Under the pieces are notes generated by a model. It was not told the DNA's origin. It did not search any database and was given only the letters and a program-made list of their open reading frames with translations. The translations under genes were made by a program, and so were the position numbers. DNA of 64,000 nt from Acidobacteriota bacterium (lineage in GTDB: Bacteria; Acidobacteriota; Terriglobia; Terriglobales; Acidobacteriaceae). The stretch lies in the NCBI GenBank assembly GCA_013289685.1, contig JABCZL010000022.1, forward strand, positions 1 through 64,000. Reading direction: 5' to 3'. Numbering within the stretch: position 1 is the stretch's first letter; the number at the start of each line of letters is the position of its first letter. Below, piece by piece: positions 1 to 17,287 of the stretch.

Positions 1-2
1 TC

Positions 3-809
3 GTTGCAGCATTGGAGTCCGGTCACAGTGAAGTCCTCACCGCATACCTCGGAGCAATGGCGAAGTTTCACACCTACAGCTTCGGCAACATCATGCTCAT
101 CGCACGCCAGAAGCCCGATGCTACCAACGTTGCCGGACTTCGGACATGGAACTCGCTTGGCCGCTTCGTTAAACGGGGACAAAAAGGCATTTTCATTCTG
201 GCCCCGATGGTCGGAAAACGTAGCACGAAGGATGTAGCAACTGACGAGCCGAGTGAAGACGCAACCACGGACGGTCAGCGGACGCTGTACGGATTCCGGG
301 CCGTCTACGTTTTCGATGTCAGCCAGACCGAAGGCAAAGAACTGCCAACACTGACCGAAGTCAACGGAGACGTGAGCGGATACCGCGAGCGTCTGTTCAA
401 GTTCGTGGAAGCGCAAAGCGTCGAGATCAGTTTCTCCGAGAGAATTGCTCCCGCGAAGGGTCTTTCGCATGGCGGGAAGATCACGCTGCTTGCTGGGATG
501 CAGCCAGCCGAGGAGTTTTCCACCCTCGTGCATGAGATCGCTCACGAAATGTTGCACCGTGGCGACCGCCGCACCCTGACCACCAAACAAGTCCGCGAGA
601 CCGAGGCCGAAGCCGTGGCCTTCGTGGTTTGCCAATCGGTCGGACTTCAGAACGGAACGGCATCCCAGGACTACATCCAGCTTTGGCACGGAGACGCCAG
701 TCTCCTGCGCGAGAGCTTGGAAGCCGTCCAGCAAACCGCTGCAGTGATCCTCGGGGGCATTGCCCCGGGCATTGCCCCCGAGCCGGCGGTACTCGCGGCC
801 AGATCGTGA
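3..809 (+). CDS. ArdC-like antirestriction / ssDNA-binding zincin, 5' end outside window
   Basis: The open frame runs off the left edge (codons from position 3, no stop upstream), so this is the C-terminal ~268 residues. The N-terminal part resembles the ArdC N domain (a YSFGNIMLIARQ-like stretch, then a GQKGIFILAP strand). A zinc-metallopeptidase motif HEIAH lies about residue 174 counted from position 12, with a downstream Glu-rich helix (ETEAEAVAF) as the third-ligand region. ArdC proteins are carried by conjugative elements and protect incoming single-stranded DNA or block restriction. The mobilisation genes further right fit that role. Family is well supported; the true start is not visible. 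Confidence 0.85.
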   Translation, partial: VAALESGHSEVLTAYLGAMAKFHTYSFGNIMLIARQKPDATNVAGLRTWNSLGRFVKRGQKGIFILAPMVGKRSTKDVATDEPSEDATTDGQRTLYGFRAVYVFDVSQTEGKELPTLTEVNGDVSGYRERLFKFVEAQSVEISFSERIAPAKGLSHGGKITLLAGMQPAEEFSTLVHEIAHEMLHRGDRRTLTTKQVRETEAEAVAFVVCQSVGLQNGTASQDYIQLWHGDASLLRESLEAVQQTAAVILGGIAPGIAPEPAVLAARS

Positions 810-822
810 AGGTTTGCGCTGA

Positions 823-1352
823 CCCGCGCCGCCGAGTTCACCACGGAGAGACCGAGCCTCACTCCAACAATTGCAGCGTGGCCGAGCGCAGGAGCGGAAG
901 CGAATCGAGAAAGAGAAGATCGCAATCACCGCACGGCACCGCATACTAGCGGCCATGTTGGAGCGGGTTTCGGTCCCGATGAAGAAAGCCGACTTGCTCA
1001 TGGTTGCACAGCATGTCCTCGGTTATGTGCCGTCCAACCGCATCCCACTACTCGCAAAGCGCCACAAACTGGAAAGCGAGAAATCCGATGCATCGATGCA
1101 TCTCTTTTGGAGCTTCTGCAAAAGCACATCTCCCACTACGACGAGCGCGCATTGTCCCGGCTGATGTTGGAAGTCGGCTTGCTCGAATCGGCTTACGGGA
1201 ATGGCGCTTACGGCGACACTGCCTCGCTGCTGAAGACGGCACGGCATTACCGCATCGATCCCGAGAAGGCGCAGAGGGCGGTAGCGCAGGGGTTTGCGGC
1301 CAAACAGAAGAATAAAGAGCGGAATGCTGCGCCGGACAAGAGTGCAACCTAG
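823..1352 (+). pseudogene. ParB-like partition protein, C-terminal remnant with frameshift
   Basis: Two frames together make one protein tail. Frame A (open from 823; TTG at 871) encodes a basic Arg/Lys/Glu helix followed by a helical domain. It breaks at 1087-1102, where the 8-bp unit GATGCATC is duplicated in tandem. Removing one copy joins frame A to the frame ending at 1352 (…KSDA-SLLELLQKH…ERALSRLMLEVGLLESA), a pattern I associate with the C-terminal half of plasmid/ICE ParB-like proteins. The N-terminal ParB nuclease/HTH half is absent, and the frame-A reading closes at 820-822. Seen: duplication and frame break. Inferred: family and loss of function. Confidence 0.6.
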
Positions 1353-1476
1353 ATCAGCTCAACGCCATTACTTCTTTCCACGGGCGGAGAGCAAACGCTT
1401 TCCCTTCCCACCCCTAGAGATAGGTGCGCTGGCGGATGTCGCCCCCCATGATGCTAAGTGCGACGGTGTGGCGATC

Positions 1477-1926
1477 CTAAACTGAATGACTTCCCCAGAG
1501 TCTTTTCCAAATGGACTGTGACGTCAGCGTTTCCACCTTGCAGTTGGTATCGCACGCGGGAGTAATCTGATGAAGAAGCCGTCCATACGCCTGAGGAACA
1601 AAATGGTTTCGGAGAAGTGCGAGGAGGGATGCGTCTTCGGAAATGATGGCTTCTATTTTCTTGTCGCGAATTATGTTGTTCAGAAGTCGCCGTGCCAATA
1701 TCTGATCGAGGGGGCCACAAAACTTGAAATTATACTCCGCTTCAGGATCCCATTTTACATTTGCGTGGGCGTAAAGACACGGAGCGACCTGCGTACAGTA
1801 TAGGACCGCACCGAGATGTTTATGCGTGGTAAGAGCTGCCTCGGCGCGCTGCTTTTCCGGTACCATGTTTTGGATAGAGCCCAATTGACAAAGCATGCTT
1901 CGAGGGCAACCTACACAGTTAGGCAT
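1477..1926 (-). CDS. cysteine-rich small protein coupled to SIR2-NACHT gene
   Basis: A 149-residue protein I do not recognise. It has eight cysteines: a tight N-terminal cluster C4-x2-C7-x5-C13 (NCVGCP…C), then C44, C50, C70 and a C-terminal C125-x3-C129. With H35 and H37 this suggests metal or Fe-S binding. There is no signal peptide or membrane segment. The ATG overlaps the last 8 nt of the SIR2-NACHT gene, the usual geometry of translational coupling, so it is probably made with and works with that protein. Nothing follows it on the same strand. Coding status rests on the overlap, the ATG start and the non-random Cys pattern; it is not a reading of any plus-strand gene. Confidence 0.6.
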   Translation of the reverse strand: MPNCVGCPRSMLCQLGSIQNMVPEKQRAEAALTTHKHLGAVLYCTQVAPCLYAHANVKWDPEAEYNFKFCGPLDQILARRLLNNIIRDKKIEAIISEDASLLALLRNHFVPQAYGRLLHQITPACDTNCKVETLTSQSIWKRLWGSHSV

Positions 1927-4594
1927 TTGCTTCTCGTTTCCCGCGTCGATGACTGCGATCGGAAACGGCCGAACGCAGGATTTTCTTCACCCTGTCGTCA
2001 AGCCCTGGGAGCTGCAACAGGTTCCGCAAGGGTTCCACTATTCCTGCTTCAACGCAGGCTCGAATCGCATTTTCCTTCTGCCAGATTCCGGTGTCGGCCG
2101 TAACTATTTCGAGGAGCGACAGCTCTGCCAAAGAATCCGGCAGCATGCGACGGAGAAGGTCAGTGGGCGACCTGCCTGTTTTCGACCACTCCGCATAGAC
2201 GCTACGGCAGTGCTCGTTTTTGCCCCCATTGACAGCTACTGACTTAACTGCTTTGATAACACGCTCCTTCAGTTCAGCCGATGCGGCGGCACCTTCAGCA
2301 ATGAGGCGTGCAACGAACATGTATGCACGAAGATCGTCGCGCTCCTCGGCAAGGATCTGGTCCAGTAACTCCGATATCGGGAAGCCTCGCTCGGCGGCCT
2401 TCGAATCGTTTATGGTGAACAGAAAAACAATCGTATCAGCCCAGTTGTCTTGTCCCCACTTCCCGACCGCTTTCTTAATGACCTCAAGAGGAGCTTTTCT
2501 GAGAGCGCACGCCGCTAAGTAGTCTCTTATCGTTTGGTGACTCCACTCAATTTCGTCACCTACATCACGGAACAGACCCGTCCTCCTAGTCAATGTACCC
2601 ATCAAATGTTCTGCAATCAACTTTGCATGAGCCGCTGTTTCTCCTAGTAAATCAGTGATCTCGGCTGCCACAGCGTCGATTGCTGAGTTCTTTTGCGGGC
2701 GAGCAGTACCACTAACAAGACGCAATGCAAGGTTTTCAAGGATTGGCAGCACACGGTCGCCGTATTTCCAGAGGCGGGCGTCCACTTCATTGAACAGAGC
2801 CGCCCTTTGATCGACGTTGATGCATGAGGAGATGTACTGTCTGTAGAGTTGTGCGCGGCTTCCCGGAAGGCGTCGCGTCTCCAGATAGAGTTGCGCAGCA
2901 AGCGTTGTGAGGAGGGGAGTATTGCCAGCATTCCCAAAGCGAAGGGAATTAAACTGTCGAGAAAACTCAGATGTTTCACTTCCAACTAGTTTCTGACAGA
3001 GTTCGCCTTGCGCAGAAGCACTTAGCGGCAACATTTCGAAGCGAATGCATCTGTCGAAAAGGTCGCCAAAACTGGGATCGCAACCAGGTCGTGACGATAT
3101 GACACATCGAGGGGCATCCGATGATTCTTCAAGCACCAATTCGAAGATGAAGTTGATGACTTTCGAGCGCGGGTCGTCAATGGGTGTCTCCGGGACTTCG
3201 TCCAACGCATCGAACAGAATCAACCAAGGCGACTGGGCTTCTCTCGACCAATCGACCAGAAAGCCATCCGGCAATTTGGCCCCAACAGTCTCACTAGCGG
3301 CCTGCAATCGCGCCTCAGGGAAGCGCATGTCACCGGGCAGACCTTTGGCTCGAATGAGCAAAGGCAGGTGACGCTTTGGAAGACCAATGGCGTCGGGATT
3401 GTCCCACGCCAGAGCCGCCAAGTGCCGCAAAAGGGTTGATTTGCCTATACCAGCTTCGCCTTCGATTGCTACATGGCGATGTCCTCCGGCACTAGCCCAT
3501 TCGAACGCTTCGGCTACGCCAATCGGAGGCCCTGCCGCCTTACAGAGTTTGTCGTCCTGCGCGTTGACTGAACGCGGTGTGCGCAACTTTGCAGGAATGT
3601 AGAGTTCATCTAGAGTTTTCCCAAACTTGTTTCGTTGCGTATCCTCGTTGGGTAGACGGCGGCAGAAGCTCCGTACATGGTGAAGGTATCTCTCGATCGC
3701 CGTCTCTTGTTGAACCACGCGGGTTGAAATAGGTGACGGTCTGACAGCTGAGAGTTCTTCAAGTAGGTTAGGAAGATCAGAATGTTCTTGGTACGCGATC
3801 GGAAGAATGCGACCTTGCAGAGGCAGCTGCTTGCGGGCATTTTCTACCTCGATTTCGCGCACGAAAACATAATGAAGGGCTGCATGCGAGTAGTTCGACG
3901 CGATCCATTTGCGAAAAACATCAAAGTTTGGATCGCTGAGTCCCCCGCCTACTGCCGTGCCAATAAACATCAATGTGCGTGTGCCGAAAAAGCCTTTGAG
4001 CGTTTGCTGCGCTGTCGTGTCACGCAGTATTTCATCATAGGACCGAATACCAAGGATCACCGAGTCGGGCTGCTTCCAATGACCATGTATATGAACGATG
4101 CGACGTCCGCTTTTGCCACGCAATTCGTCATCTAGTTCGAACCGATCCTGCCAAGTGATAGCTGGGAGACCAGTCACTTTTTCTAAGATGCCGTCATAGT
4201 TGGTGGTCAAGAACGTAGCATTCAGGCCGGCGACGGCATTTGCTAACTCATGCTTAACGATCCCGTTCTCTAGTTCCCCGACTGTCTCTCGGAGCCAATC
4301 GCGGTAGTCTCGACCCGTTCGTCCACCAAGCTTTTCTGTTATGTGCTCAGAAGCAGTCAGCATCTCCGAAATATCCCCGCTGCCCAGTTGCATCAAGCGG
4401 ATTCTTTTCCATTCCTCTGTCACGAGCTGATGCTCTGTGCAGAACGCCACGCCACTGCGGATTAGTCCAGCCCAGGATGCCACCTCCTGGTTGTCAGTTG
4501 CGGCGATTGACAAGCCAGTGCCAATGATTGCCACAAACTGGTTCGTCGGATCTCGATATTCGTCCTTAAGGCGATCAAAAAGGTCGCGCTGCAT
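1919..4594 (-). CDS. SIR2-NACHT NTPase, NLR-like antiphage defence protein (Avs5/bNACHT-type)
   Basis: 891 residues in three parts. Residues ~1-280 are a SIR2-family NADase domain: GTGLS at 25-29, TTNYD at 130-134, the catalytic-type HG pair at H170, and GGGLSDPNF near 216-224. Residues ~360-690 are a NACHT STAND ATPase: Walker A GEAGIGKS at 379-386, Walker B ILFDALDE at 459-466, a SSRPG sensor at 500-504, and the NACHT-associated helix motif WSHQTIRDYLAA at 684-695. Residues ~700-891 are helical with no repeats I recognise, probably the sensor. In known systems of this architecture phage recognition triggers oligomerisation and NAD+ depletion. It has its own promoter candidate and is coupled to the small Cys-rich gene. 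Domain calls are strong; specificity is unknown. Confidence 0.9.
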   Translation of the reverse strand: MQRDLFDRLKDEYRDPTNQFVAIIGTGLSIAATDNQEVASWAGLIRSGVAFCTEHQLVTEEWKRIRLMQLGSGDISEMLTASEHITEKLGGRTGRDYRDWLRETVGELENGIVKHELANAVAGLNATFLTTNYDGILEKVTGLPAITWQDRFELDDELRGKSGRRIVHIHGHWKQPDSVILGIRSYDEILRDTTAQQTLKGFFGTRTLMFIGTAVGGGLSDPNFDVFRKWIASNYSHAALHYVFVREIEVENARKQLPLQGRILPIAYQEHSDLPNLLEELSAVRPSPISTRVVQQETAIERYLHHVRSFCRRLPNEDTQRNKFGKTLDELYIPAKLRTPRSVNAQDDKLCKAAGPPIGVAEAFEWASAGGHRHVAIEGEAGIGKSTLLRHLAALAWDNPDAIGLPKRHLPLLIRAKGLPGDMRFPEARLQAASETVGAKLPDGFLVDWSREAQSPWLILFDALDEVPETPIDDPRSKVINFIFELVLEESSDAPRCVISSRPGCDPSFGDLFDRCIRFEMLPLSASAQGELCQKLVGSETSEFSRQFNSLRFGNAGNTPLLTTLAAQLYLETRRLPGSRAQLYRQYISSCINVDQRAALFNEVDARLWKYGDRVLPILENLALRLVSGTARPQKNSAIDAVAAEITDLLGETAAHAKLIAEHLMGTLTRRTGLFRDVGDEIEWSHQTIRDYLAACALRKAPLEVIKKAVGKWGQDNWADTIVFLFTINDSKAAERGFPISELLDQILAEERDDLRAYMFVARLIAEGAAASAELKERVIKAVKSVAVNGGKNEHCRSVYAEWSKTGRSPTDLLRRMLPDSLAELSLLEIVTADTGIWQKENAIRACVEAGIVEPLRNLLQLPGLDDRVKKILRSAVSDRSHRRGKREANA

Positions 4595-4620
4595 TATTCA
4601 CCCGTACAAACTGGCTGCCT

Positions 4621-4648
4621 ATTATAGGCACAGATCCCCTCCTGTGCC
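4621..4648 (-). promoter_or_regulatory. promoter with embedded inverted repeat upstream of SIR2-NACHT
   Basis: On the minus strand a perfect TATAAT (plus-strand 4621-4626) lies 27 bp from the ATG. Immediately upstream is a perfect 7-8-7 inverted repeat, GGCACAG / CTGTGCC (4627-4633 and 4642-4648), filling the -12 to -34 interval where no good -35 box is seen. The arrangement fits a promoter controlled by a protein bound between the -10 and -35 sites. No regulator gene is identified. Confidence 0.5.
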
Positions 4649-4690
4649 GCTGTTGATCGATCATGATTCCACTATCGCGACCTTGGCACG

Positions 4691-6373
4691 TTAAGTAATC
4701 TGCAGGTCTTTTGTTGGCGATTCACCACTGTCGCCAACAACTGACACCTTGGTCGTGCCCGTAGTGGCAATATCTTGCGCCGTTAGGGAAATCGTAATCT
4801 CCTTCTGAGTTACTGCTCCGTGTTCATGTACACTGTTTCCAAACTTCACCTGAGTCACGGTGCCAAGGCGGTCGCCGATGATCCTGAGGGTGACAGGAGG
4901 GGTTGCCGCGTGAGAAACCGTCGCAGGTTCGAGTCTATCGATGATTGGCGCGGCAAGCTTTCCTGTGCGATTGTCGGCGCCTTTGAAGAGCGTGTCAAAA
5001 ATATCGGCGAGCTTGTCCGATGCCTTGTCCGCGAACATTCCTACTAGTGCACCAACGGCGATGACCCCAAATTGATTGACGGCTTTAGCGTCCGCTGGAG
5101 TGCCCGCCATGAAACCGCCGCGTAGGACTGCGTAAAAGACCACGGCCAGAGCGGCTCCAAGGAAAGGGCGCGTGACATACCACCAGAACCAACTTGCAGT
5201 GAGCGTACGGTTGCCAACGAAGTCGCCAAAGGACTTAAGCGAGTGTATGAAGCTCCCCAATCCGCCCGCCAAAATCGCCAGCAAAAGTAGTTGAAGCTCA
5301 CGGGTTAGTTCGAAAGGCCAACCAAACAAGTTCTGTTTCACGTGCGCCTTTGTAACCGTCATTGCGATTGCGCTCGTCACTTGTTTGTTCGTGATGATAT
5401 CCACCAACATCGGGTCCACACTGTTTATCACAGCTTGGTCCAGCTGAGCCTGTATCCGGCTCGAATCGATAAACACGGTCGGCTGCTCTTGCTGATTGAA
5501 TCGAATCTTTGAGTCAGCAGTGAAGTGATCTCCGTAGGCGGTGACGTACAGAACAGGTGCGGCGGTCAAGGTTGCCTGGGTAAATAACTTGTGCAGTACG
5601 GGAGGATTTGGTGTTGTTGTGGCCGTGGTACCCGACTGCAAAGGATTAGGCTCTGTTGCGGCTGCAGCACCCGATTGTGTCGACGGAGCCGCTCCAGTCT
5701 GCGCAGATTGCCCGAGTGCCTCAGTCTTGATGTCCAGCCCGACCTCGGAGAAATCGATGGAGCCGACGCGCCACAGAAGAGCAACTAGCACAATTCCGAT
5801 GAAGAGGAGATAGAACGCAAGCACACGGCGCGTAATGATCGGCATCGGATCGCTGTCATTTGCGAGAGAATCAGGCTTGTCTTTGATAAAGAAATAGACC
5901 AACCACGCCACTGCAACGGAGACGACGAGAATCAGAAATGTAGCGCCGATGATCTTTTGTGGTTCCCGCAATTGCTGGTCTGGTAGTAGAACCAGAAGGT
6001 AAATGAAGCAGGTGGAAGCAGCGAGAAACAAAACAAGCATCCCCCAGCGCGCGGGCTTCGACAGCTTCGCCACGCCGGCGTCGGCGGCTGCGGCCACGAT
6101 CTGTTTCAGTTCAGCCAAGCCAGCGGCACTTAAAGCGATGCCGATAACGATCGGGGCTAATTCGGCGTTCCAGGTGAATCCGTGCTTAACGAAGTGCAAG
6201 ACTGCAAGAAAGATCAGATCCAGGCCACAGAGGATCCAGAGCGCCGCCAGTCTACGTTTACTTGCCCCGGTTATGTTGGACGGACCAGGCCCCTCTTTGA
6301 TCTCAAAGACCAGCACGAAACCTATGACGGAAACCAACAACCCAACTGCGAGAACTATGGTGTGTGCCAGCAT
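4691..6373 (-). CDS. polytopic membrane protein with Ig/TIG-like extracytoplasmic domains, unknown function
   Basis: From the chosen ATG the protein is 560 residues; the frame stays open to a TTG at 6499, which would add 42 unlikely residues. It has six hydrophobic segments in the first ~210 residues and a Thr/Ala/Pro-rich linker with TEPNPLQSGT-like sequence. A beta-rich domain of about 90 residues (YVTAYGDHF…KIRFN) resembles IPT/TIG folds. Three more membrane segments follow, with LLAILAGGLGSFIHSL and SWFWWYVTRPFLGAA motifs, and then a second TIG-like domain (LRIIGDRLGTVTQVKFGN). No enzyme motif is seen. It lies 96 bp upstream of SIR2-NACHT on the same strand, and the pairing may be functional or incidental. 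Confidence 0.75.
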   Translation of the reverse strand: MLAHTIVLAVGLLVSVIGFVLVFEIKEGPGPSNITGASKRRLAALWILCGLDLIFLAVLHFVKHGFTWNAELAPIVIGIALSAAGLAELKQIVAAAADAGVAKLSKPARWGMLVLFLAASTCFIYLLVLLPDQQLREPQKIIGATFLILVVSVAVAWLVYFFIKDKPDSLANDSDPMPIITRRVLAFYLLFIGIVLVALLWRVGSIDFSEVGLDIKTEALGQSAQTGAAPSTQSGAAAATEPNPLQSGTTATTTPNPPVLHKLFTQATLTAAPVLYVTAYGDHFTADSKIRFNQQEQPTVFIDSSRIQAQLDQAVINSVDPMLVDIITNKQVTSAIAMTVTKAHVKQNLFGWPFELTRELQLLLLAILAGGLGSFIHSLKSFGDFVGNRTLTASWFWWYVTRPFLGAALAVVFYAVLRGGFMAGTPADAKAVNQFGVIAVGALVGMFADKASDKLADIFDTLFKGADNRTGKLAAPIIDRLEPATVSHAATPPVTLRIIGDRLGTVTQVKFGNSVHEHGAVTQKEITISLTAQDIATTGTTKVSVVGDSGESPTKDLQIT

Positions 6374-6552
6374 CGAACCCCCCCGACTAAGAATTTCGCG
6401 AAAACCCCGTACCATGGCGCACCAAAGCACCGCAATGCCGACTCGACTGGCAAATTTAAGCACCTGGTGCGACCCGATCACACTGCGAGATCCAACCAAG
6501 CCGGTTCTAATCTACGGCGACCGGCACACTGCAACATATACAGCCCAAGAAG

Positions 6553-7485
6553 CTATGCCCGATATGAAGTGTTTGAAACTATAACCGGCACCGCCGTATA
6601 TCCGGCTCCGTCGATAAGAGCCTTGACGCTCTCCGCATTGAGCTGCTTGTGCACGCTGGGGCCAATGCAAACCTGGCGCAGAGGCAGCAGAGGAAGTGAG
6701 CCTGGGCTAATCAAGTCGCGCAAACTATAGTAGGGGACCAGCATGTTGCCGCTCACGCGAAATCGTGGTCGCACTGGTATACCGGGCGCGGGCGTGAAGA
6801 TGAGACGCCACTCGTCTTCCTCTTGGAAATCTGCATTCTTGAAAGTTGGTATGAAGAACCGGATTGCATCTGCGGCTTTCCGAGCCAAGTCAGCGGGGGT
6901 CTGCCCTGCGGTAAGCGGGTTGTTAGCATTATTGGGCGCGTAATGTTCGACGGCCCGCTCGATAATATCGGTTTGGGTGAGCGGATTGTAAAAGACTTTC
7001 CAAAAACGCAGAAGCCCGTGTACATTGTCCGGGCCTGTTACATCGGCGAACTCTTTAGGTGCGAATTGAAGGCTGACTCCAGAACCATTGGCGCCGTATC
7101 CACGCCACTGACTAAGCAGGTTGTCTTTCTCACAGAAACACGATATGTACACTCCTTCTTGCTGGCTGGTGCGTTGGCTGAGCTCGTAAAGATATTGTGT
7201 GTCGTACTTCTGAGCTGTGACCGCGGTATTAATCACTTTCCTAGCCACATTGGCGCCATGCACTATCTCCTCGGCATCATTCGAATATCGTGAATGCGTA
7301 AGCCAGAGGTCGTGCTTATTCAGGATTCCGACCAGGCCCATCAAATCTGTGTAGTGATACAGCAGCAACCCGCCCTGCTTCAGCTTGCTCTGAGGCGTGA
7401 AGATCAGGTCAACATTGTGCGACCCAATCGACTCAAGGAACATCGATAGAGCCGCGACATCGACGAATGGCTCTGAGGCATTCAT
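6553..7485 (-). CDS. DUF2971 family protein
   Basis: About 310 residues with the DUF2971 hallmarks: LYHYTDLMGLVGIL at ~44-57, the THSRYSNDAEE turn at ~65-75, and CFCEKDNLLSQWRGYG near 118-133. The family is widespread in bacteria and often sits in defence or mobile contexts; its biochemical role is unproven. The H-Y-T plus ‘ILxxxxLWxT’ pattern resembles DarT/ADP-ribosyltransferase-type folds, which is inference only. Start: ATG at 7485; a GTG two codons earlier is also possible. It is the first of four minus-strand genes of the putative defence cassette. Confidence 0.85.
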   Translation of the reverse strand: MNASEPFVDVAALSMFLESIGSHNVDLIFTPQSKLKQGGLLLYHYTDLMGLVGILNKHDLWLTHSRYSNDAEEIVHGANVARKVINTAVTAQKYDTQYLYELSQRTSQQEGVYISCFCEKDNLLSQWRGYGANGSGVSLQFAPKEFADVTGPDNVHGLLRFWKVFYNPLTQTDIIERAVEHYAPNNANNPLTAGQTPADLARKAADAIRFFIPTFKNADFQEEDEWRLIFTPAPGIPVRPRFRVSGNMLVPYYSLRDLISPGSLPLLPLRQVCIGPSVHKQLNAESVKALIDGAGYTAVPVIVSNTSYRA

Positions 7486-7873
7486 TTGCACAAAGTAGGC
7501 TGTGACGAAGCAGCCGACGCTCCCGAAGCATCACGATATACCTTCGCAGAAACAGAATCCATGTTCCACTAGAGCGTATTCGGAGAGCACAATGTTAATC
7601 GACCACTTGTCGGCACGCCATGCGAGCGTAAATACCCGCGCCAAGCAAAATACCATAAGTCTTCAGCTGGCGCCTCTGCCTTGTGTCGACCACCGCTCTT
7701 ATTTCAGTTCTGATTTCGTAACAAGGGAGTTAAACTGAGCTTTTGATCGCTTGCTGCCGCTGACCCTGCTAGTCCGGGTTCCCGCCGCTCCCTCGCCCTT
7801 CGCTGCTATACTCTCCATTTCGCAACTTCCCCGCGCGGGCCCGAAACGTTCACTAGAGGAGTCACCCTCGCCC
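7486..7873. other. divergent intergenic region, 388 bp
   Basis: It separates the minus-strand DUF2971 gene from the plus-strand DUF4062-NB-ARC gene, so it should hold promoters for both. A 78-codon GTG-started frame (7502-7738, plus) has no recognisable features and is not called. A TATACT at 7807-7812 could be a -10 for the plus-strand gene, with no convincing -35; AGAGGAG at about 7855-7861 is its ribosome binding site. No repeats or RNA gene seen. Confidence 0.5.
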
Positions 7874-10468
7874 ATGGACCACCTCCGCGTACTGCGGGTC
7901 GTCATCGCCTCCCCCGGAGACGTCAAACCCGAACGCGAAAGCATCCCCCGCGTTGTCGAAGAAGTAAATCGCAACATCGCCCACCCTCGCGGACTGCACC
8001 TCGAAGTCCACCGCTGGGAAACCGACTCCTATCCCGGCTTCCATCTCGAAGGGCCGCAGGGACTCATCGACCCTATCCTGAAGATCGAAGATTGCGACAT
8101 CCTAATGGGCATTTTCTGGAGGCGCTTCGGTACGCCAGTTACTGATGCCAAGTCCGGCACCGAGCATGAGTTCCGCCTCGCCTACGAAGCTTGGAAGAAA
8201 AACCGCAAGCCACAAATCATGGTTTACTTTTCCCAGAAGCCATACACACCACAGTCGAGAGACGACACCGACCAATGGGGACTCGTGCTGCAATTCAAGA
8301 AAGAGTTCCCACGCGAGGGTCTCTGGTGGGATTACAAGAAGAGAGGGGAGTTCGAGGAGCGCACCAGAAACCACCTAACTAACTTTCTGTCCACACAGTT
8401 CCCCCTCGACAAGCTAACTCTCGAGCCAGCGGTACTCGCTCCCCGCTTCCAAGTTCCGCCCCCGCCCGCCGACTTCACCGGACGCAAAGACGAACTCCGC
8501 AGGCTCCGTGCCGCCATCGAAAAAGGCTGCGTCCACATCTCGGGACTCCAGGGCCAAGGCGGGGTCGGCAAGACTGCCCTCGCTCTCAAACTGGCCGCCG
8601 AGCTCGCGCCCAACTTTCCCGATGCGCAAATCTATCTCGACCTCAAAGGCACCAGCGACAAACCTCTCAGCGCCGCCGAGGCCATGTCGCACGTCCTCCG
8701 CACCTTCCATCCCAAAGCCAAGCTGCCCGAAGACGAAGAAGAACTCTGTACTCTATTCCGTTTTGTCCTCCAGGACAAGCGCGCCCTGCTCCTAATGGAC
8801 AACGCCAAAGACGCCGCCCAGGTTCAATCTCTCATCCCCCCTGACGGCTGCACCTTGTTGGTCACGTCCCGCTTCCGCTTCCACTTGCGCGGTGTTACAC
8901 CAAAGAATCTCGACACACTTTCCCCCGCAGATGCAAAGAAGCTTCTGCTTCGCATCGCCCCTCGAATCGATGGTGAAGCCGAAGCCATAGCCGCGTTGTG
9001 CGGTCGCTTGCCTCTTGCCCTCTGTCTGGCGGCAACCTACATCGTCGAGAGCTTTAACATCGTCACTCCGGCAGACTATCGGCAGATGCTCGCGGGCGAG
9101 AAGAATCGCCTGAAGCTCTTGGGCGGCGACAAAGGTGTGGGAGCCTCTATCACTCTGAGCTACAACCTGCTCGAAGACGAAGAGCAAAAGCGCTGGCGCA
9201 TGTTGGCAGTCTTTCCCGACACATTCGATACCGCCGCCGCCGCTGCCGTCTGGGAGATAGAAATCGACGGGGCCAAAGAAACGCTCAGCCGCCTCATGCA
9301 ATACTCCATGCTCGAATGGAAGGAACCCGCCAGGCGCTACCGTCTGCACGACCTCATGCGCGATTTTGCCCGCCAACGCCTGACACGCGCCGAATCCGAT
9401 ATCGCCTCCCGAATGCATGCCCGGCACTACGGAGCGGTACTGTCGAGAGTTGACGATTTCTATCGGAAGGGTCGCGACTCAATAGTAAATGGTCTTGCCC
9501 TCTTTGACCTCGAGTGGGGAAACATCCAAACCGGGCAGGCGTGGGCCGAGACCCATTCGCCAGAGGGCGGCAACGCTGCGAAACTGTGCAGCGGCTATCC
9601 CGATTCGGGCGCTTACATCCTTCACATGCGTCAGCATCCCAGCGAACAGGTTCGCTGGAATACGGCAGGGCTCACTGCCGCCCGCCAACTAAGGGACCGC
9701 GCAGCAGAGGGCCGTCACCTCTGCAACCTCGGCAACGCAAGCTACTCGTTGGGCCTTTACCGTCCTGCCATCAAGTGTCATAAGCAACACTTGGTCATCG
9801 CCCGCGAGGTCGGCGACCGCTCGGGCGAAGGCGTGTCCTTGAACGGCCTAGGTATCGCATACTATTCATTGGGCGACTTCCCCCGCGCCATCGAGTATTA
9901 CAAGCAGGCTCTCGTGATTGCGCGAAAGATTCCAGACCGTCGCGGCGTAGGTAACGCGCTTGGCAACTTAGGTACCACATACGCCGACTTGGGCAAATAC
10001 GACCAGGCGATCAAGTGCCACGAGCAGCGCCTGGCTATCGCCCGCACGATGGGCGACCGACAAGCCGAAGGGCAGGCCCTAGGAAACCTCGGCATCGCGC
10101 ATCGTTCGTTGGGCAAACACAAGCGCGCCATCGGGTACCACGAGAAGGCCCTGGCGATCAATCGCGAAATCGGCGACCGCTGGGGCGAGGGCAGGGATCT
10201 CGGCAATCTGGGCTATGCGTATGCAGAATTAGGCAATTCCCCACTCGCCATCGAGTACTACAAACAGGCGCTAGCCATCGCCCGCGAAATCGGCGACCGG
10301 CGGAGCGAAGGGAACACGCTGGGGAACATGAGCCTGACGCTGGACAAACTCGGCGAACGCAAGAAGGCCATCGAACACGCCAAAGCCTCGCTAAAGATCC
10401 GAGAGCAGATCGAAGACCCCAACGCCGCGAAGGTCAGAAAGCAACTCGAAGAGTGGCGTAGCGCCTGA
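7874..10468 (+). CDS. DUF4062-NB-ARC-TPR protein, NLR-like STAND ATPase
   Basis: 864 residues from the ATG at 7874, which has AGAGGAG upstream; the frame is open further 5' but with low-quality sequence. Residues 5-180 form a DUF4062 domain (VVIASPGDVKPERES, ILMGIFWRRFG, SGTEHEF), a Rossmann-like module often fused to STAND ATPases. NB-ARC follows: FTGR at 201, P-loop GQGGVGKT at 227-234, kinase-2 LLLMDN at 305-310, LVTSR at 329-333, CGRLPLAL at 376-383, and an MHD-like LHD at 491-493. Residues 612-851 are exactly six 40-residue TPRs. The layout is effector-NTPase-sensor, as in plant and animal NLRs and bacterial Avs-like immunity. A defence role is inferred from architecture and location. 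Confidence 0.88.
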   Translation: MDHLRVLRVVIASPGDVKPERESIPRVVEEVNRNIAHPRGLHLEVHRWETDSYPGFHLEGPQGLIDPILKIEDCDILMGIFWRRFGTPVTDAKSGTEHEFRLAYEAWKKNRKPQIMVYFSQKPYTPQSRDDTDQWGLVLQFKKEFPREGLWWDYKKRGEFEERTRNHLTNFLSTQFPLDKLTLEPAVLAPRFQVPPPPADFTGRKDELRRLRAAIEKGCVHISGLQGQGGVGKTALALKLAAELAPNFPDAQIYLDLKGTSDKPLSAAEAMSHVLRTFHPKAKLPEDEEELCTLFRFVLQDKRALLLMDNAKDAAQVQSLIPPDGCTLLVTSRFRFHLRGVTPKNLDTLSPADAKKLLLRIAPRIDGEAEAIAALCGRLPLALCLAATYIVESFNIVTPADYRQMLAGEKNRLKLLGGDKGVGASITLSYNLLEDEEQKRWRMLAVFPDTFDTAAAAAVWEIEIDGAKETLSRLMQYSMLEWKEPARRYRLHDLMRDFARQRLTRAESDIASRMHARHYGAVLSRVDDFYRKGRDSIVNGLALFDLEWGNIQTGQAWAETHSPEGGNAAKLCSGYPDSGAYILHMRQHPSEQVRWNTAGLTAARQLRDRAAEGRHLCNLGNASYSLGLYRPAIKCHKQHLVIAREVGDRSGEGVSLNGLGIAYYSLGDFPRAIEYYKQALVIARKIPDRRGVGNALGNLGTTYADLGKYDQAIKCHEQRLAIARTMGDRQAEGQALGNLGIAHRSLGKHKRAIGYHEKALAINREIGDRWGEGRDLGNLGYAYAELGNSPLAIEYYKQALAIAREIGDRRSEGNTLGNMSLTLDKLGERKKAIEHAKASLKIREQIEDPNAAKVRKQLEEWRSA
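9707..10426 (+). repeat. six in-frame 120-bp TPR repeats
   Basis: Six consecutive 40-codon units encode a consensus like EGxxLGNLGxAYxxLGxxxxAI, each ending in a IAREIGDR-type tail. Units start at residues 612, 652, 692, 732, 772 and 812, with no indels in the array. The strict phase suggests recent unit duplication or recombination. The last unit is the most diverged (IEDPNA in place of GDR). Confidence 0.85.
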
Positions 10469-10965
10469 CGAACCGAGCCTCGAACCATCCAACCCGCCCT
10501 TAACTCTTTTCCGATCGAACCCTATCCTCCGCCTCGGGCGCGACCTTGGGCGCGGTGCGGAGAAACCTCATCAGTCCCGCGCCGGTGGCCTTTCCCACTC
10601 GCTTCTTGAAAAAGTCGGATCAAACGCGGCTGACCCTCATGGCGGGTTCCAGTGACTGATGATCATTCAGTTCCTTACTTCAAAACCGATGTTCTGAGGT
10701 CCAGTTGGGAACGCTGCTTCGCAGCGGCTGAAGAATGACACGCCACCCCTGCGAGGGTGCTGTGCGGCAACTCGGGTTGCTGCACGGTTACCACTCAAAA
10801 CAAAGCAGATGGCGATTCCAGGTTGCTGTGGGGCAACCTGAGACTCTCAAAGAAAACTCCCGCGCCAACGCTTCCCCAGCTCGAAACCCCTTGACACGCA
10901 TCCATAAAAGTACGACTATTCGATGTATGTCATACAATTAATCTGATGTATGGCATGGAGGAGCG
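10469..10965. other. 497-bp non-coding region upstream of mobilisation genes; possible oriT
   Basis: No credible gene. Two features stand out. First, paired hairpins: a 10-4-10 near-perfect inverted repeat at 10762-10785 and a perfect 8-6-8 repeat at 10819-10840. They share the 13-bp unit GCTGTGsGGCAAC at 10759-10771 and 10825-10837. Second, a promoter/operator region sits just before 10966 (separate entry). Hairpins and direct repeats next to an RHH protein, a MobC-like protein and a relaxase are the usual makeup of an origin of transfer. No nic site could be recognised. Confidence 0.35.
10891..10960 (+). promoter_or_regulatory. promoter, operator repeats and RBS of the 366-residue RHH gene
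   Basis: TTGACA at 10891-10896 is a consensus -35. A -10 is less certain: GACTAT at 10914 has the right 17-bp spacing, and TACAAT at 10933 is a better box at the wrong distance. TGTATG-T-CATACA (10924-10936) is a perfect 6-1-6 palindrome, and a partial second copy, TGTATGGCATGG, starts at 10947. The sites are 23 bp apart, about two helical turns, which suits binding of an RHH dimer pair and autoregulation. GGAGG at 10956-10960 is the RBS. Confidence 0.5.
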
Positions 10966-12066
10966 ATGCCAGATCAGCCCCAAACTCAGACTCTCTCCCT
11001 TCGAATCAGCGAGGGCCTGCGCAAGCGCCTAGATCATATCCGAAAAGTCACCTCATTGCGGAAAGGCGAGGACGTATCGACATCCGAGATTGCCAAGCAA
11101 CTGCTGGAATCGTCGCCTGCTGACCGGCTCGAAGTAACCGAGCTGATACGGGAGCCAACCGAATGCCTCTTGCGAATTCGTAAGAAATGCGAAGCCGAGC
11201 AGCCGCTCTCATTGGCTGAGTGGACGGTCCTCGCGTACTACGTCCAGCAAGGCGCAGATGCCATCTGCAATACCCCGGTTTCCCGTGAGTCCTGCATTGC
11301 CTTTCTAGAAGCATTTCAGGCGGTTTATAAGTTGAGGAAAAAACCCAACCCAGGCAAGGACGAGTATTACCTCACTAAGCTTCCAAGCGAATTCCGACCA
11401 GGGGAGAGAACGCAGCCCGCCAGCCCCGAGGCGGTGCGGCAGACCGTTGCCGAAACAGTACGACAGCTTGCTGACCCGGCCATGAAGTGGAGACCCATCC
11501 TTGCTGGGCGCAATCTGTATGTGTTTCTCGACGGCGATGAAGTTAACGACGCCGATGCCGTGAACCGCGCCCTTCGTCCCTACTGGGAGGGGCTTTGGCG
11601 GATGGCCGCGCGCGGTCATTACTTTCTCTACAAAAAGCCGATCCGTGGCAAGGTCAACTCCAGTGATTCTGTCGTCCAGCCTGCAATCCCGAACGTTTTC
11701 GAATCTAACTTTGTGCTGTCCTTCGTGCGCGGCGACGGCAACGATGTACTCCTGTCGTTTAGCTTTCCCGGCCCACACGGTCCCGTGTACCCCATGAGTT
11801 CCTATCCGATGATTCAGGAGTTTCGCGCGATGTTGAACGGATTGACGGCGAAGTCCCGACACTGGAACGGAGAATACTTCTTTGGATACACGTGGGACCG
11901 GGAGGGAGAGACCCAGTTCTCGTTTCGCGCTCATGCAAACGGCATCACCTTTGGCTTTTCCCAAGAGGAGTGGAACGCAGTACGAAAACTCTTCCGCCGG
12001 GCTTGGGAGATGCCAGAACTCCAGGCCACATGGGACGAACTAACGATGGAATACGGTGACCTGTGA
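10966..12066 (+). CDS. RHH-type mobilisation-region protein, unknown function
   Basis: 366 residues. The first ~60 look like a ribbon-helix-helix DNA-binding segment (TLSLRISEGLRKRLDHIR…VSTSEIAKQLLES). The rest is a mixed domain with no known motif, containing LYVFLDGDEVNDADAVNRAL and a C-terminal WNAVRKLFRRAWEMPELQATW stretch split by a turn. It ends in a 4-nt overlap (GTGA) with the MobC-like gene, so it belongs to the mobilisation operon. It may be a relaxosome or autoregulatory protein; the palindromic sites upstream support a DNA-binding role. Function otherwise unknown. Confidence 0.7.
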   Translation: MPDQPQTQTLSLRISEGLRKRLDHIRKVTSLRKGEDVSTSEIAKQLLESSPADRLEVTELIREPTECLLRIRKKCEAEQPLSLAEWTVLAYYVQQGADAICNTPVSRESCIAFLEAFQAVYKLRKKPNPGKDEYYLTKLPSEFRPGERTQPASPEAVRQTVAETVRQLADPAMKWRPILAGRNLYVFLDGDEVNDADAVNRALRPYWEGLWRMAARGHYFLYKKPIRGKVNSSDSVVQPAIPNVFESNFVLSFVRGDGNDVLLSFSFPGPHGPVYPMSSYPMIQEFRAMLNGLTAKSRHWNGEYFFGYTWDREGETQFSFRAHANGITFGFSQEEWNAVRKLFRRAWEMPELQATWDELTMEYGDL

Positions 12067-12428
12067 CAACCGGACAGTCATTCCGCACGAAATCGCTCAC
12101 TGCCAAAGTGACTGAGGAGGAGTATGTCCGCCTGCTGGAACTGGCGACAGCCGCAGGTCAGAGCATGGGCGAATGGGCGCGCACGGTTTTGCTGGCGCAA
12201 GTGAATTCCAGCCAAGAGATCATCCTGGCCGAAATACTAGCTTTGCGCATGCTGTACCTGAACAGCGTGCAGATTCTTGGACAGCGACGGGAACTGACCA
12301 CCGAAGAACTGAGGAAGCTCATTGAGCGAGTGGACCGCGAGAAGCAGGGTAAAGCGCAGGAGCGGCTGAGTGGACAAAATAGCAACCGGCCCAGCCCGGA
12401 AAACTCAGCCAACAGCGCCGCCATTTGA
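12063..12428 (+). CDS. MobC-like relaxosome accessory protein
   Basis: 121 residues with GTG start inside the previous stop. The N-terminal half resembles MobC/RHH relaxosome proteins: SLTAKVTEEEYVRLLELA, then SMGEWARTVLLAQ, followed by an amphipathic helix ending in a basic, polar tail. Such proteins bind oriT and help the relaxase open DNA. Neighbours upstream (RHH protein) and downstream (coupling protein, relaxase) fit. Confidence in the family is moderate because the protein is small. Confidence 0.65.
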   Translation: MTTGQSFRTKSLTAKVTEEEYVRLLELATAAGQSMGEWARTVLLAQVNSSQEIILAEILALRMLYLNSVQILGQRRELTTEELRKLIERVDREKQGKAQERLSGQNSNRPSPENSANSAAI

Positions 12429-12500
12429 ACCGGATTCAAGGCCGGTGGGATGCGCTGGAATTCGAGATCGACTGACTTGGGGCGGGAAGGAAGTAAAGCC

Positions 12501-14522
12501 GTGAACAGGAAATGGGGACGCGACGAGACGTATTACTGGCCGAGCCACAAGCCAGTGTGGACGATCAGCGCCTTTGCTGTCGGAGTGCTAGCACTCTTTG
12601 GAATGGCGATCTATCAGGCCAGGGTGCAATGGACGCCGCTACAGCGCTATTGGCTCCCGAACTATCTCAAGACGCAGCTGGCGACAAGCCTCGGTTTTCC
12701 CCCGATTAATTACCGTCTCCTCGAAGTGGAAGACCGACAGGGGCGTCACCGATTAGCGGTTGAGACGGATGTCGCACCGTGGGAAGGTCCCCTGCCGCGC
12801 GGGGCGACTATTCCGCTGATCCTATCGAAGGAAGCGGCACGGCAGGACCTGCATCTGGCGCTGGAACCAGCGCAAAAATACAAGAATAAGGAACTCAGCG
12901 ACTACGCTCAACACTGGATTTACCAAGACCAAACTTGGGGCGACTTCCTGCATTGGCCGCTCGTTACCGGTCTAGCAGTTTTCGGCTGGCTGTCGATCTT
13001 TGCTGTACCCAAAGACTGGCAGCGGCGGCGCGTGCTCAAGTATGGGCGCCGGACCAAAGGCCCAGAGTTCGCCACGGCGGCGCAGTTCAACCGTAGCCAG
13101 CAATCCGATGGCATAGGTTTCATCACAAAAGAGCCGCGCACAGTGGGTGAATTCCTGCTGCAGCGTGACGGGAAACTGGTGCGGATTCCGCGCGAGCGGG
13201 AGAGTTCGCATTTCATGATGATCGGCGATACCGGCGCAGGCAAATCGTCGCTTATCCGCCAGATCCTCATGCAGGTGGAAGGGCGGGGAGAAACCGCGAT
13301 TGTGTACGATCCGGCGCTCGAATACACACCGCAGTTTTACGAGCCCAGCCGTGGCGATGTGATCTTGAACGCGGTAGATGCACGTATGCCCTATTGGTCA
13401 CCGTGCGATGAAGTGCAGCATGAAGCAGAAGCCGAAGGGTTGGCAGCGGCGCTCTTCAAAGACGATCCCCGCACCAATCCGTTTTTCGTGATGGTGCCGC
13501 GCCAGATCTTCGCCCACCTGCTGATCGAGCAACCGAAGCGGACACCGCAGGAGCTACTCGCCATTCTGCGAGATGAGCGCGAGCTGGCAAAGAGACTCAA
13601 GGGCACCGAGCACGCGGCAGCAATCTATCCCGATGCGGGACCGCAGCGTGGCGGTATGATCGCAACTCTCAACAGCGTGAGCAATGCACTGAAGCTGTTG
13701 CCCCGAAGAGAAGAAGCTAAGGCGAACTGGACGGCGGTGGAATGGGCGCGGCAGCGGGACGGGTGGTTGTTCATCACCAGCCCGCCGGAGTTCCGCGAGA
13801 GACAGCGGCCCCTCATCAGCATGTGGCTCGACATGCTGGTGCTGCGCACCATGAACCAGGGCAAGCCCGGTGCGCGCCCCGTCTGGTTCATTCTGGACGA
13901 GCTCCAGAGCTTACATGCGTTGCCGCAGTTACACACAGCGATTACCGAGAGCAGGAAGGCCAGAAACCCGGTCGTGCTCGGCTTCCAAGGCCGCAGCCAG
14001 CTTGAAGATCTTTACGGTCGCAAGGCGGAAGCGATGCTCTCCCAACCTGCGACGAAAGTCTTTTTGCGCACGGATGAGGCCAACTCCTCAAAGTGGATCA
14101 GCCAGACCATCGGCGAAGTGGAAATCGAGCGATTGCGTGAAAGCCGCATGGAAGGGCACTTCCCCAGGAACAGGCGGGATTCCCGCAACTACCAGCTTGA
14201 GCGGACGACCGAGCCGTTGGTGATGGCATCAGAAATCCAGGGCCTTCCCGATCTGCGCGCCTATTTGAAAAGTGGCAACCTAGTAGTTCCGCTGAGCTTC
14301 CCTTACATCGAGCTACCAAAGCGCCACGAGGCGCTGGTTGAGCGAAAACTCCCGGCACAGCTGCCAAAGGAAGCGAGCGCGCAGACCGCAACCGCGTCTC
14401 GGAATGGCGATGTCTGCGTTCTGACGCGCAGCTTGCCACCGCCGATCCCGCCACAGCGTCAGCAGCAAGCGAAACCACGACCGACGCGGGCGGCGAACGA
14501 TGACCTGCCCTTCTTGGAGTAA
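12501..14522 (+). CDS. type IV coupling protein, VirD4/TraD-like ATPase
   Basis: 673 residues from a GTG with GGAAGGAAG upstream; an in-frame ATG at 12450 is less likely. Two membrane segments occur (~residues 20-40 and ~155-180, WPLVTGLAVFGWLSIF). Then come Walker A GDTGAGKSS near residue 242 and Walker B WFILDEL near 462-468, with a TraG/TraD C-terminal pattern (LGFQGRSQLEDLYG, FLRTDEANSSKWIS). It carries the relaxase-DNA complex to a secretion channel. Its stop lies 4 bp before the relaxase ATG. No VirB genes are in the window, so mating-pair formation must come from outside or from left of the window. Confidence 0.9.
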   Translation: MNRKWGRDETYYWPSHKPVWTISAFAVGVLALFGMAIYQARVQWTPLQRYWLPNYLKTQLATSLGFPPINYRLLEVEDRQGRHRLAVETDVAPWEGPLPRGATIPLILSKEAARQDLHLALEPAQKYKNKELSDYAQHWIYQDQTWGDFLHWPLVTGLAVFGWLSIFAVPKDWQRRRVLKYGRRTKGPEFATAAQFNRSQQSDGIGFITKEPRTVGEFLLQRDGKLVRIPRERESSHFMMIGDTGAGKSSLIRQILMQVEGRGETAIVYDPALEYTPQFYEPSRGDVILNAVDARMPYWSPCDEVQHEAEAEGLAAALFKDDPRTNPFFVMVPRQIFAHLLIEQPKRTPQELLAILRDERELAKRLKGTEHAAAIYPDAGPQRGGMIATLNSVSNALKLLPRREEAKANWTAVEWARQRDGWLFITSPPEFRERQRPLISMWLDMLVLRTMNQGKPGARPVWFILDELQSLHALPQLHTAITESRKARNPVVLGFQGRSQLEDLYGRKAEAMLSQPATKVFLRTDEANSSKWISQTIGEVEIERLRESRMEGHFPRNRRDSRNYQLERTTEPLVMASEIQGLPDLRAYLKSGNLVVPLSFPYIELPKRHEALVERKLPAQLPKEASAQTATASRNGDVCVLTRSLPPPIPPQRQQQAKPRPTRAANDDLPFLE

Positions 14523-14526
14523 AACG

Positions 14527-17262
14527 ATGCTGACCATTTCCAAGCCGCTGTCATCTGGCCAGGCGCAGGCGTACCACAAGGAAGAGTTTGCCAATGCGCG
14601 GGACAACTATTACTCAGAAGGCGACCGTGTGCGCGGCGAGTGGCACGGCAAATTGGCCGAACAGTGGGACCTTAAAGGTGAGGTCAACGAAGAGCACTTT
14701 GCGCGACTCGCAGATGGCCAGCATCCACTCACGGGTGCGCAGCTGGTGCAGCACCGGGCGGCGATGGAGTACGTCACCGACCGCGGTGAAGAAGTAAAGA
14801 CAATGGAGCACCGCGCTGGGTGGGATGCGACATTCTCCGCGCCCAAGAGCGTCAGTTTAACCGCACTGGTGGGTGGCGATGAGCGAGTGCGGGCAGCGCA
14901 CCGGGAGAGCGTCAATGTTGCTCTTGATGAACTCGAAAAATATGTGCAGGCCCGCATTGGCGGCAATCATCCAGCAGAGACAACCGGCAAATGGATTGCC
15001 GCGAAATTTGAGCACGATTCGAGCCGCCCGGTCGAGGGCTACGCCGCGCCGCAACTCCACACGCATGTTGTGTTCTTCAACATGACCGAGCGGGAAACCG
15101 GCGAAATGCGTGCCCTGCAACCGAGAGAACTGTACCGCTCACAGCAGTACGCCACCGCAATATACCGTTCGGAGTTGGCACTTCGCCTTGTGACCCTTGG
15201 TTACGAAATTGAGCAGAGCGTCCATGGCGCGCCTGAAATTCGGGGCTACTCGCAAGAATATCTTGAGGCCAGCAGCCCGCGTCGCCAACAAATCAAAGAC
15301 CACTTGACGGAAGGAGGACTGAGCGGAGCTGAATCGGCACAGATTGCCGCCCACCGCACCCGCGAAGCCAAATTGAACATCACGCACGAAGAAATGCAGC
15401 GCCGCCATGACGAGATGGCGAAAGAGTACGGTAACCAGCCAGAGCGAATCGTGCGTGAGGCTCAGTCCCGCGCTTATGAGATCGCAGCCAGGAGCGAGGA
15501 GCAAACGAACGCAACAGCCCGCGAAGCCGTCCGGTACTCGGTTGAAAGGAACTTCGAGCGCGAAGCCGTCTCGGACGAACGTGAGCTGATGCGGGATGCA
15601 CTGAAACGTGCGATGGGCGAGGCTCCGTTTTCGAGAATTCAGCAGCAATTCGATCAAGCGGTGGAGAACGGCGACCTAATTCAGAAGGAAGCTCACGGCA
15701 TTAGACGGAGCTTTACCACGGACGAGATGATCGCGCTGGAGCACGGCAATATACGCCTCATGCGTAGCACCCAGGAACAATATCCGGTTCTCGCCGATGA
15801 CGGCACCCGAAGGGAGATTGAGCACGACTACACGCATCTCAGCAGCAGCCAGCATCGGGCGGTACAGGAGGTTCTCAGCAGTCGCGATCAGATCACGGCG
15901 CTTGAGGGCGTAGCCGGGGCAGGCAAAACCACTTCTTTGACAGCCATTCGTGACGCCGCCGAACGCGAGGGCTACAGCGTCGAGGGTTTTGCACCTACCT
16001 CGCGAGCCGCGCACAAACTTGGAGAAGCCGGAATCCTCTCGAACACATTACAGCACCACCTTGCCCGTGGAACGCAGGTTGATACCGGAGAAAAACATCT
16101 GTACGTGCTGGATGAATCGAGTCTCGCCAGTACTCGGCAGATCAATGACTTCCTACAGCGGCTGGGAGAACTAGACCGAGTGTTGCTTGTGGGTGACGTG
16201 CGACAGCACGAAGCTGTCGAAGCCGGACGCCCTTATTACCAGTTACAGGAAGCCGGAATGCGAACCGCGCATCTGGACGAGATCATCCGCCAGAAGGACC
16301 CGGCGCTCAAGGAAGCAGTTGAGCAGCTTGCCCGAGGCGAAATTCACGTCGCCGTCGAAAACCTGGACCGCCAAGGGCGGGTACAACAAATCGAAAACCG
16401 GGAAGAACGATTCCAGGCAATCGCCCAGGAGTATGCCTGTTTTCCCCAAGGCACGCTGGTGGTTTCCCCAGACAACCAATCCCGCCGTGAACTGAACGGC
16501 ATAATTCATGACGAACTACAAGAGCGCGGCCAGGTCCAGCCTCACGAGCAGTCCGTCCGTGTGCTGGAGACCCGTCAGGAACTGACCGGCGCAGACCGTG
16601 CATGGGCGGAACAATACTTGCCCGGCGATGTGTTGCGTTATTCGCGAGGCAGCAGAGTGGTGGGAGTAACTGCCGGCCAGTATGCCACGGTCACAGACAC
16701 GGACGCCAAACAGAACCTGCTCACTGTTGAACGCCAGGACGGCCAGCATGTGAGCTACGACCCGCGCCGCCTGCAGGGAGTTTCGGTCTACCGGGAAGCA
16801 GAGCGTAATTTCGCCGAAGGCGACCGTATCCAGTTCACCGCTCCCTCAAAAGAGTTGCACGTTGCCAGCCGCGAGTTGGGAACGATTGTACGAATCGATG
16901 AACGCGGCGAGATTGCCGTGCGCACCGATTCAGGAAGAGTGGTGGAATTCCAACTGAAAAACCACCCTCATCTCGACTATGGCTACGCCGTTACGAGCCA
17001 CAGCAGCCAGGGCCAGACCGCCGACCGTGTACTGATCCACGCCGACACCGAAGAAAGCTCGCACCTGGTAAATAGCCGCATGGCGTATGTCGCTGTCTCA
17101 CGTGGACGCTACGATGCCCAGATTTACACCAACGACAAATCGGAACTCGCGCAGCACTTGAGTCGCGATGTTTCACACAGCACGGCCATCCACACCGGCC
17201 AAGACCATGCAGGCACGACACATTCGCAGGCCCATGTTCAGGGTGAGGCGCTCGGAATGTGA
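14527..17262 (+). CDS. MobF-family conjugative relaxase-helicase (TrwC/TraI-like)
   Basis: 911 residues from ATG 14527 (GGAG upstream); an upstream in-frame ATG at 14500 is in the previous gene. The N-terminal relaxase domain has candidate catalytic tyrosines at Y28/Y29 and the metal-binding histidines H163, H178 and H180 (QLHTHVVFFN). It also has WDATFSAPKSVSL, a MobF signature. A RecD-like helicase follows: Walker A EGVAGAGKT near 460-468, FAPTSRAAHKLGEAGI, VLDESSLAS (motif II), and a C-terminal GYAVTSHSSQGQTADRVL. It nicks oriT, stays bound to the 5' end and unwinds DNA for transfer. Full length for this family. Confidence 0.93.
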   Translation: MLTISKPLSSGQAQAYHKEEFANARDNYYSEGDRVRGEWHGKLAEQWDLKGEVNEEHFARLADGQHPLTGAQLVQHRAAMEYVTDRGEEVKTMEHRAGWDATFSAPKSVSLTALVGGDERVRAAHRESVNVALDELEKYVQARIGGNHPAETTGKWIAAKFEHDSSRPVEGYAAPQLHTHVVFFNMTERETGEMRALQPRELYRSQQYATAIYRSELALRLVTLGYEIEQSVHGAPEIRGYSQEYLEASSPRRQQIKDHLTEGGLSGAESAQIAAHRTREAKLNITHEEMQRRHDEMAKEYGNQPERIVREAQSRAYEIAARSEEQTNATAREAVRYSVERNFEREAVSDERELMRDALKRAMGEAPFSRIQQQFDQAVENGDLIQKEAHGIRRSFTTDEMIALEHGNIRLMRSTQEQYPVLADDGTRREIEHDYTHLSSSQHRAVQEVLSSRDQITALEGVAGAGKTTSLTAIRDAAEREGYSVEGFAPTSRAAHKLGEAGILSNTLQHHLARGTQVDTGEKHLYVLDESSLASTRQINDFLQRLGELDRVLLVGDVRQHEAVEAGRPYYQLQEAGMRTAHLDEIIRQKDPALKEAVEQLARGEIHVAVENLDRQGRVQQIENREERFQAIAQEYACFPQGTLVVSPDNQSRRELNGIIHDELQERGQVQPHEQSVRVLETRQELTGADRAWAEQYLPGDVLRYSRGSRVVGVTAGQYATVTDTDAKQNLLTVERQDGQHVSYDPRRLQGVSVYREAERNFAEGDRIQFTAPSKELHVASRELGTIVRIDERGEIAVRTDSGRVVEFQLKNHPHLDYGYAVTSHSSQGQTADRVLIHADTEESSHLVNSRMAYVAVSRGRYDAQIYTNDKSELAQHLSRDVSHSTAIHTGQDHAGTTHSQAHVQGEALGM

Positions 17263-17287
17263 GAACGGGTTGAAATGGAGTAGCACC

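Follow-up and report, generated by a model that had tools for sequence, protein, structure and literature searches.

In NLR-type proteins the NTPase is commonly restrained by the C-terminus, and phage recognition by the bacterial members of the group is hard to study because sensor and effector share one chain. The published rule for the bNACHT proteins is a tripartite layout, i.e. the C-terminus senses, the NACHT domain oligomerises and the N-terminus acts (PMC12169576). SIR2 has been described as one of the NACHT effectors (PMC10952713), and the SIR2-STAND protein Avs5 is known to deplete NAD+ (PMC12931631).

The locus described here lies in a window of 64,000 nucleotides, the whole stretch of DNA analysed (positions 1 to 64,000 of contig JABCZL010000022.1, Acidobacteriota bacterium, assembly GCA_013289685.1). 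We read it from the sequence as a candidate defence system of the bacterial NLR type (SIR2-NACHT), in which a separate, overlapping small gene may carry the C-terminal module, and we give this reading a probability of roughly one half. The features that bear on it are as follows.

1919..4594, minus strand: SIR2-NACHT gene, 891 aa; intact frame with Pfam SIR2_2 and NACHT matches and the motifs of both
3827..4216, minus strand: SIR2_2 domain core, residues 127-256 (Pfam 1.1e-17; similarity to SIR2 proteins)
2990..3478, minus strand: NACHT domain, residues 373-535 (Pfam 1.4e-10)
1477..1926, minus strand: downstream gene for a small protein of 149 aa, which may be a detached C-terminal module; open frame with an ATG at 1926 and an in-frame match to a NACHT C-terminus
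1919..1926, minus strand: stop/start overlap ATGCCTAA, 8 nt, a possible translational coupling site judged from the sequence
1684..1776, minus strand: matched core LYAHANVKWDPEAEYNFKFCGPLDQILARRL, residues 51-81 of the small protein; 14/31 residues are the same as in WP_210633134.1 (1314-1344)

The SIR2-NACHT identity of the 891-residue protein, as given in the original prediction, is borne out, since both domains score above the Pfam cut-offs. A SIR2-like NADase domain at the N-terminus is followed by the NACHT NTPase and then by a C-terminal region, of ~190 aa beyond the part common to other NACHT proteins. The sirtuin-fold motifs (IIGTGLS, TTNYD, HIHGH) and the NTPase motifs (GEAGIGKST, LILFDALDEV, SSRPG) are all present, so that both enzymes look intact. 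The closest PDB entry to the SIR2 part by sequence is human FAM118B (8e-14), and the SIR2 region also resembles SIR2 proteins at five of the loci that were fetched with the large protein (L003, L004, L005, L010 and L011), the one at L003 being 37% identical over residues 11-281. The full-length protein was found in this genome alone among 396 genomes of the phylum and 398 of the family. It probably kills infected cells through the destruction of NAD+.

The overlapping 149-residue frame with eight cysteines is likewise present as claimed, and it shares 8 nt with the stop of the SIR2-NACHT gene. From stop to stop it comprises 169 codons (P ~7e-4 for any one frame at the local composition), i.e. 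it stays open for 20 codons upstream of its own ATG, inside the SIR2-NACHT gene. Codon usage, scored as log-odds trained on three neighbouring genes, is ambiguous as a mark of coding. The value of the small frame (-0.004) is above the median of wrong frames (-0.14; 95th percentile 0.035) but below the 1st percentile of true genes (0.08), a figure that is optimistic because it was measured on the training genes. The G+C content by codon position (57/41/51%) follows the pattern of the large gene (61/44/54%). A single-sequence AF2 model of the small protein was uninformative (pLDDT 36). Apart from the open frame itself, the sole positive evidence that the frame is coding is an apparent in-frame homology to the C-terminus of a NACHT protein from Rhizobium.

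This homology came to light when loci were first fetched with the SIR2-NACHT protein and those loci alone were then searched with the small protein. One relative was found among them, WP_210633134.1, a NACHT protein of 1392 aa on plasmid p4 of Rhizobium sp. NLR16a (locus L008), which was in the search set because its NACHT region resembles that of the SIR2-NACHT protein (27% identity over 448 aa). The match falls at the extreme C-terminus, residues 1314-1344 (L008 6638-6730), and is in the right frame, with 45% identity over 31 aa (LYAHaNvkwDpeAeyNFKFC in the small protein against LYAHgNflkDegAqwNFKFC in Rhizobium). Its E value is 2.7e-4 over all loci then fetched and 1e-5 pairwise. Its score of 71 was not reached by any of 2000 shuffles (best shuffle 56; fitted Gumbel P 1.5e-5). 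The remaining five reading frames of this DNA give scores of 28-34. The flanks of the matched core align no better than shuffles. A match of this strength could not have been detected in a database-wide search. What gives it weight is where it lies, together with the small search space, for which there was a reason in advance. On this basis the core of the small protein is very probably a true homologue of the Rhizobium C-terminus.

The same data bear on whether the small frame is a gene at all. It might be spurious, i.e. non-coding DNA downstream of a one-gene SIR2-NACHT system, and this would fit the ambiguous codon usage, a cysteine frequency like that of a random frame and the failure of direct searches to find relatives. 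We regard this as very unlikely, given the in-frame match to the NACHT C-terminus (P ~1.5e-5) and the 169 open codons (P 7e-4).

In the Rhizobium protein the module is fused to the NACHT chain, and a piece that is fused to one NACHT protein and adjoins another points, by the classical fusion argument, to a joint function. A functional link between the small protein and its NACHT neighbour, which the original prediction had put forward, is supported in this way. The fused counterpart also raises the possibility that the locus holds one SIR2-NACHT-CTD gene (~1030 aa) that is frameshifted or was recently split, be it that an indel or an assembly error broke it or that +1 frameshifting joins its two frames. 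A single indel in the shared 20-codon zone would fuse the frames (169 vs 149 codons), the only relative is a fused protein and the two-gene layout is known from a single genome. Nevertheless, ~700 aa of helical/TPR-like sequence separate the NACHT domain from the module in Rhizobium, so the pair is not just a broken version of that protein. The ATG at the overlap also speaks for a separate gene, though one would be expected there by chance in about a quarter of cases. A broken or split gene is an unlikely explanation in our view. The Rhizobium protein is without a SIR2 domain, hence the module is not tied to SIR2; its first 98 residues instead show a 66% match to a dsDNA-nuclease-domain protein of Methylocystis. 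A Methylocystis parvus plasmid (L027 6509-10256) carries a set of three genes, for the dsDNA-nuclease-domain protein, of which a part makes up this match, a 188-aa hypothetical protein and an ATP-binding protein. An IS66 element lies just upstream of the Rhizobium NACHT gene.

The small protein had been proposed to be of a metal-binding or Fe-S type, and the comparison does not support this. Its eight cysteines are at positions 4, 7, 13, 44, 50, 70, 125 and 129. Eight or more would occur in a random frame of that length with P ~0.11, as compared to 1.4e-4 for a typical protein, so the cysteine content is no evidence of a gene. C70 is the only one of the eight within the reliable matched core, where it is common to the Rhizobium relative; C13 and C129 can be paired with the relative solely outside the core, in flanks whose alignment is at chance level. 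A conserved set of cysteine ligands is thus not seen. An independent Fe-S or zinc protein acting as a redox sensor would account for the CxxCx5C motif at the N-terminus, but no counterpart of this motif was found in the one relative, and a later start at M21 is possible, in which case the motif would fall outside the protein. We give this explanation hardly any credence. The small protein is more likely to be a separately encoded piece of a receptor than a free-standing metal protein, since it resembles the tail of a related receptor.

SIR2-NACHT proteins and other NACHT relatives are also found without the module. On an Azotobacter chroococcum plasmid (L010) SIR2 and NACHT follow each other in one ORF of ~1065 aa (SIR2 32% identity), with no module match within it and no partner downstream. 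On the Agrobacterium plasmid pAt2788a (L007 3965-8598) an IS3 element interrupts the SIR2 domain of the SIR2-NACHT gene, and again no such module was found inside or downstream. The same is true of the NACHT loci of Streptomyces, Embleya, Acaryochloris and Nostoc. The idea that SIR2-NACHT proteins generally need such a partner is therefore not supported, as the Azotobacter, Agrobacterium and Streptomyces relatives have no counterpart in the C-terminus or the neighbourhood. In terms of sequence the partner appears to be an optional part and no general requirement of these proteins.

The main rival of a sensing module is an inhibitor. The small protein, having evolved from or as a receptor C-terminal domain, could act like an antitoxin that keeps the NADase off until infection removes it. 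C-termini commonly restrain the NTPase in NLRs, and the overlap of the gene with that of the effector would suit stoichiometric co-production. A precedent exists in Rpn, where small C-terminal domains that are translated separately block the full-length toxic protein (PMC10327210). On the other hand, SIR2-NACHT relatives exist without the small protein, so that these proteins do not as a rule depend on being restrained in trans, and we consider such an inhibitor improbable.

The original prediction had called for a search for homologues of the small protein, and here the outcome is divided: the direct searches were empty, and the narrowed set gave the one relative, fused to a NACHT protein. 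Direct searches of Pfam, NCBIfam, PADLOC and PHROGs gave no match, and hits in NCBIfam (0.098) and the PDB (0.72) were judged to be noise. No relative was found directly in 200 related genomes, in plasmid and phage records, in viral contigs or, with a single-sequence query and exact octamers that have little power, in genome contigs. Viral scans with the motif and with the NACHT profile were also empty. A two-sequence profile run over 396 genomes of the phylum, 399 of the class and 91 of two orders (the samples overlap) matched nothing besides this window. Two candidate matches were rejected, namely one in a 95-aa frame without context (L015; 0.04) and one that has internal stops and lies partly on the flank of a frame unrelated to it (L026; 0.0026). 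The plasmid matches of the Rhizobium C-terminus to an aminotransferase-like protein of Arthrobacter (L012) and to a Streptomyces protein were dismissed as chance (E 3-4). The claim that the module is rare covers the phylum sample and the plasmid and phage records only.

The surroundings of the gene pair contain the following features.

4691..6499, minus strand: protein of 602 aa that has hydrophobic segments as well as a CoaZ/PGGG-type repeat and a TIG-like match; separated by 96 nt from the SIR2-NACHT gene downstream of it
6553..7491, minus strand: DUF2971 protein (Pfam 7.3e-10); 53 nt upstream of the 602-aa gene
7751-10468, plus strand: DUF4062-NB-ARC-TPR protein, divergent from the SIR2-NACHT gene; DUF4062 just below the Pfam cut-off
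12450-14522: TrwB coupling protein of the integrative element
14500-17262: TrwC relaxase of the integrative element
17470-18723: integrase of the integrative element
1-18812 and contig C23 77516-79140: integrative element; the assembly is broken inside it
L033 1734-3023 (end of contig C23): AbiEii-type nucleotidyltransferase and AbiEi_2-type partner; within the element, close to its opposite end

The SIR2-NACHT pair is carried by an integrative element that sits in a tRNA-Met gene. The genes of the integrase, the TrwC relaxase and the TrwB coupling protein end at the tRNA-Met gene, and the 3' half of the latter recurs as an exact 45-bp direct repeat on contig C23, 1.6 kb from the contig end. 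The 602-aa and DUF2971 genes are possibly members of one operon with the pair, four genes in all; hardly any relative of the 602-aa protein was found in plasmids or in 61 related genomes, and the DUF2971 protein shows a weak PADLOC PDC-S31 match (0.0013). According to a report of 2026, DUF4062 domains act as antiphage NADases and are TIR-like (Swarozyc; PMC13174449), therefore two NADase-type NLR-like proteins may sit side by side in this element. The nearby defence cargo, i.e. the DUF4062-NB-ARC-TPR protein and the AbiEi/AbiEii pair, supports a defence role for the locus by association only. We also note that an antirestriction-like protein with an ArdC N-terminal domain (12-809, plus strand) lies at the start of the contig and adjoins the defence cargo.

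Returning to the module on a second gene, we tentatively suggest a two-subunit NLR in which a small protein of its own, exchangeable and coupled in translation to the SIR2-NACHT NADase, serves as the sensing or restraining module. The small protein would be made beside the SIR2-NACHT protein by virtue of the gene overlap, would bind to it and would supply in trans a part of the sensing or restraining function of the NLR C-terminus. Recognition of a phage component might then lead to ATP-driven oligomerisation of the NACHT domain and activation of the SIR2 domain, whereupon NAD+ would be depleted and the infected cell would stop growing or die.

Should nature have detached the part that senses or restrains, this part can be purified, exchanged and assayed by itself, and small frames downstream of other NACHT genes merit re-examination. 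Sensors and effectors could be swapped between systems if the two-subunit arrangement is true. A frameshifted gene or a spurious frame would leave a plain SIR2-NACHT gene, i.e. a routine finding.

In comparison with known systems, the Rpn toxin offers a parallel in that a defence effector is accompanied by a small C-terminal domain produced separately (PMC10327210); however, Rpn is a nuclease and not a NADase, and translation of its small protein begins at an internal start and not in a following gene. The Azotobacter chroococcum protein has the same order of SIR2 and NACHT in one ORF but is without a downstream partner or a module match. The Rhizobium protein WP_210633134.1 shares both the NACHT region and, in its C-terminus, the match to the small protein, whereas it has the module fused behind TPR-like repeats, is without SIR2 and has IS66 just upstream. 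Assignment to DSR1/DSR2 does not fit, as a NACHT domain is present and the Dsr1 model covers residues 38-213 only. Avs5 (AVAST type 5) is alike in that a SIR2 NADase and a STAND NTPase form one fused protein, and NAD+ depletion would be expected here as well (PMC12931631). The SIR2 effector domain of Avs5 is indeed found in the 891-aa protein, but the NTPase of Avs5 is of the nSTAND3 type and the C-terminus carries repeats. The 891-aa protein has NACHT (1.4e-10), with nSTAND3 below the cut-off (E 0.0035) and no Avs5 model among its PADLOC matches, and the assignment to Avs5 was rejected on the NTPase domain. The bNACHT antiphage proteins are the nearest in layout, with an N-terminal effector, a central NACHT domain and a helical C-terminus, and SIR2 effectors are known among them (PMC10952713, PMC12169576). 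The protein studied here has the central NACHT domain with Walker A and B (GEAGIGKST, LILFDALDEV; Pfam 1.4e-10) and the effector domain at the N-terminus (SIR2_2, 1.1e-17; TTNYD, HIHGH). In the published layout of the bNACHT proteins the sensor is on the same chain, whereas here a short C-terminal region follows NACHT and the candidate further module is on a second gene.
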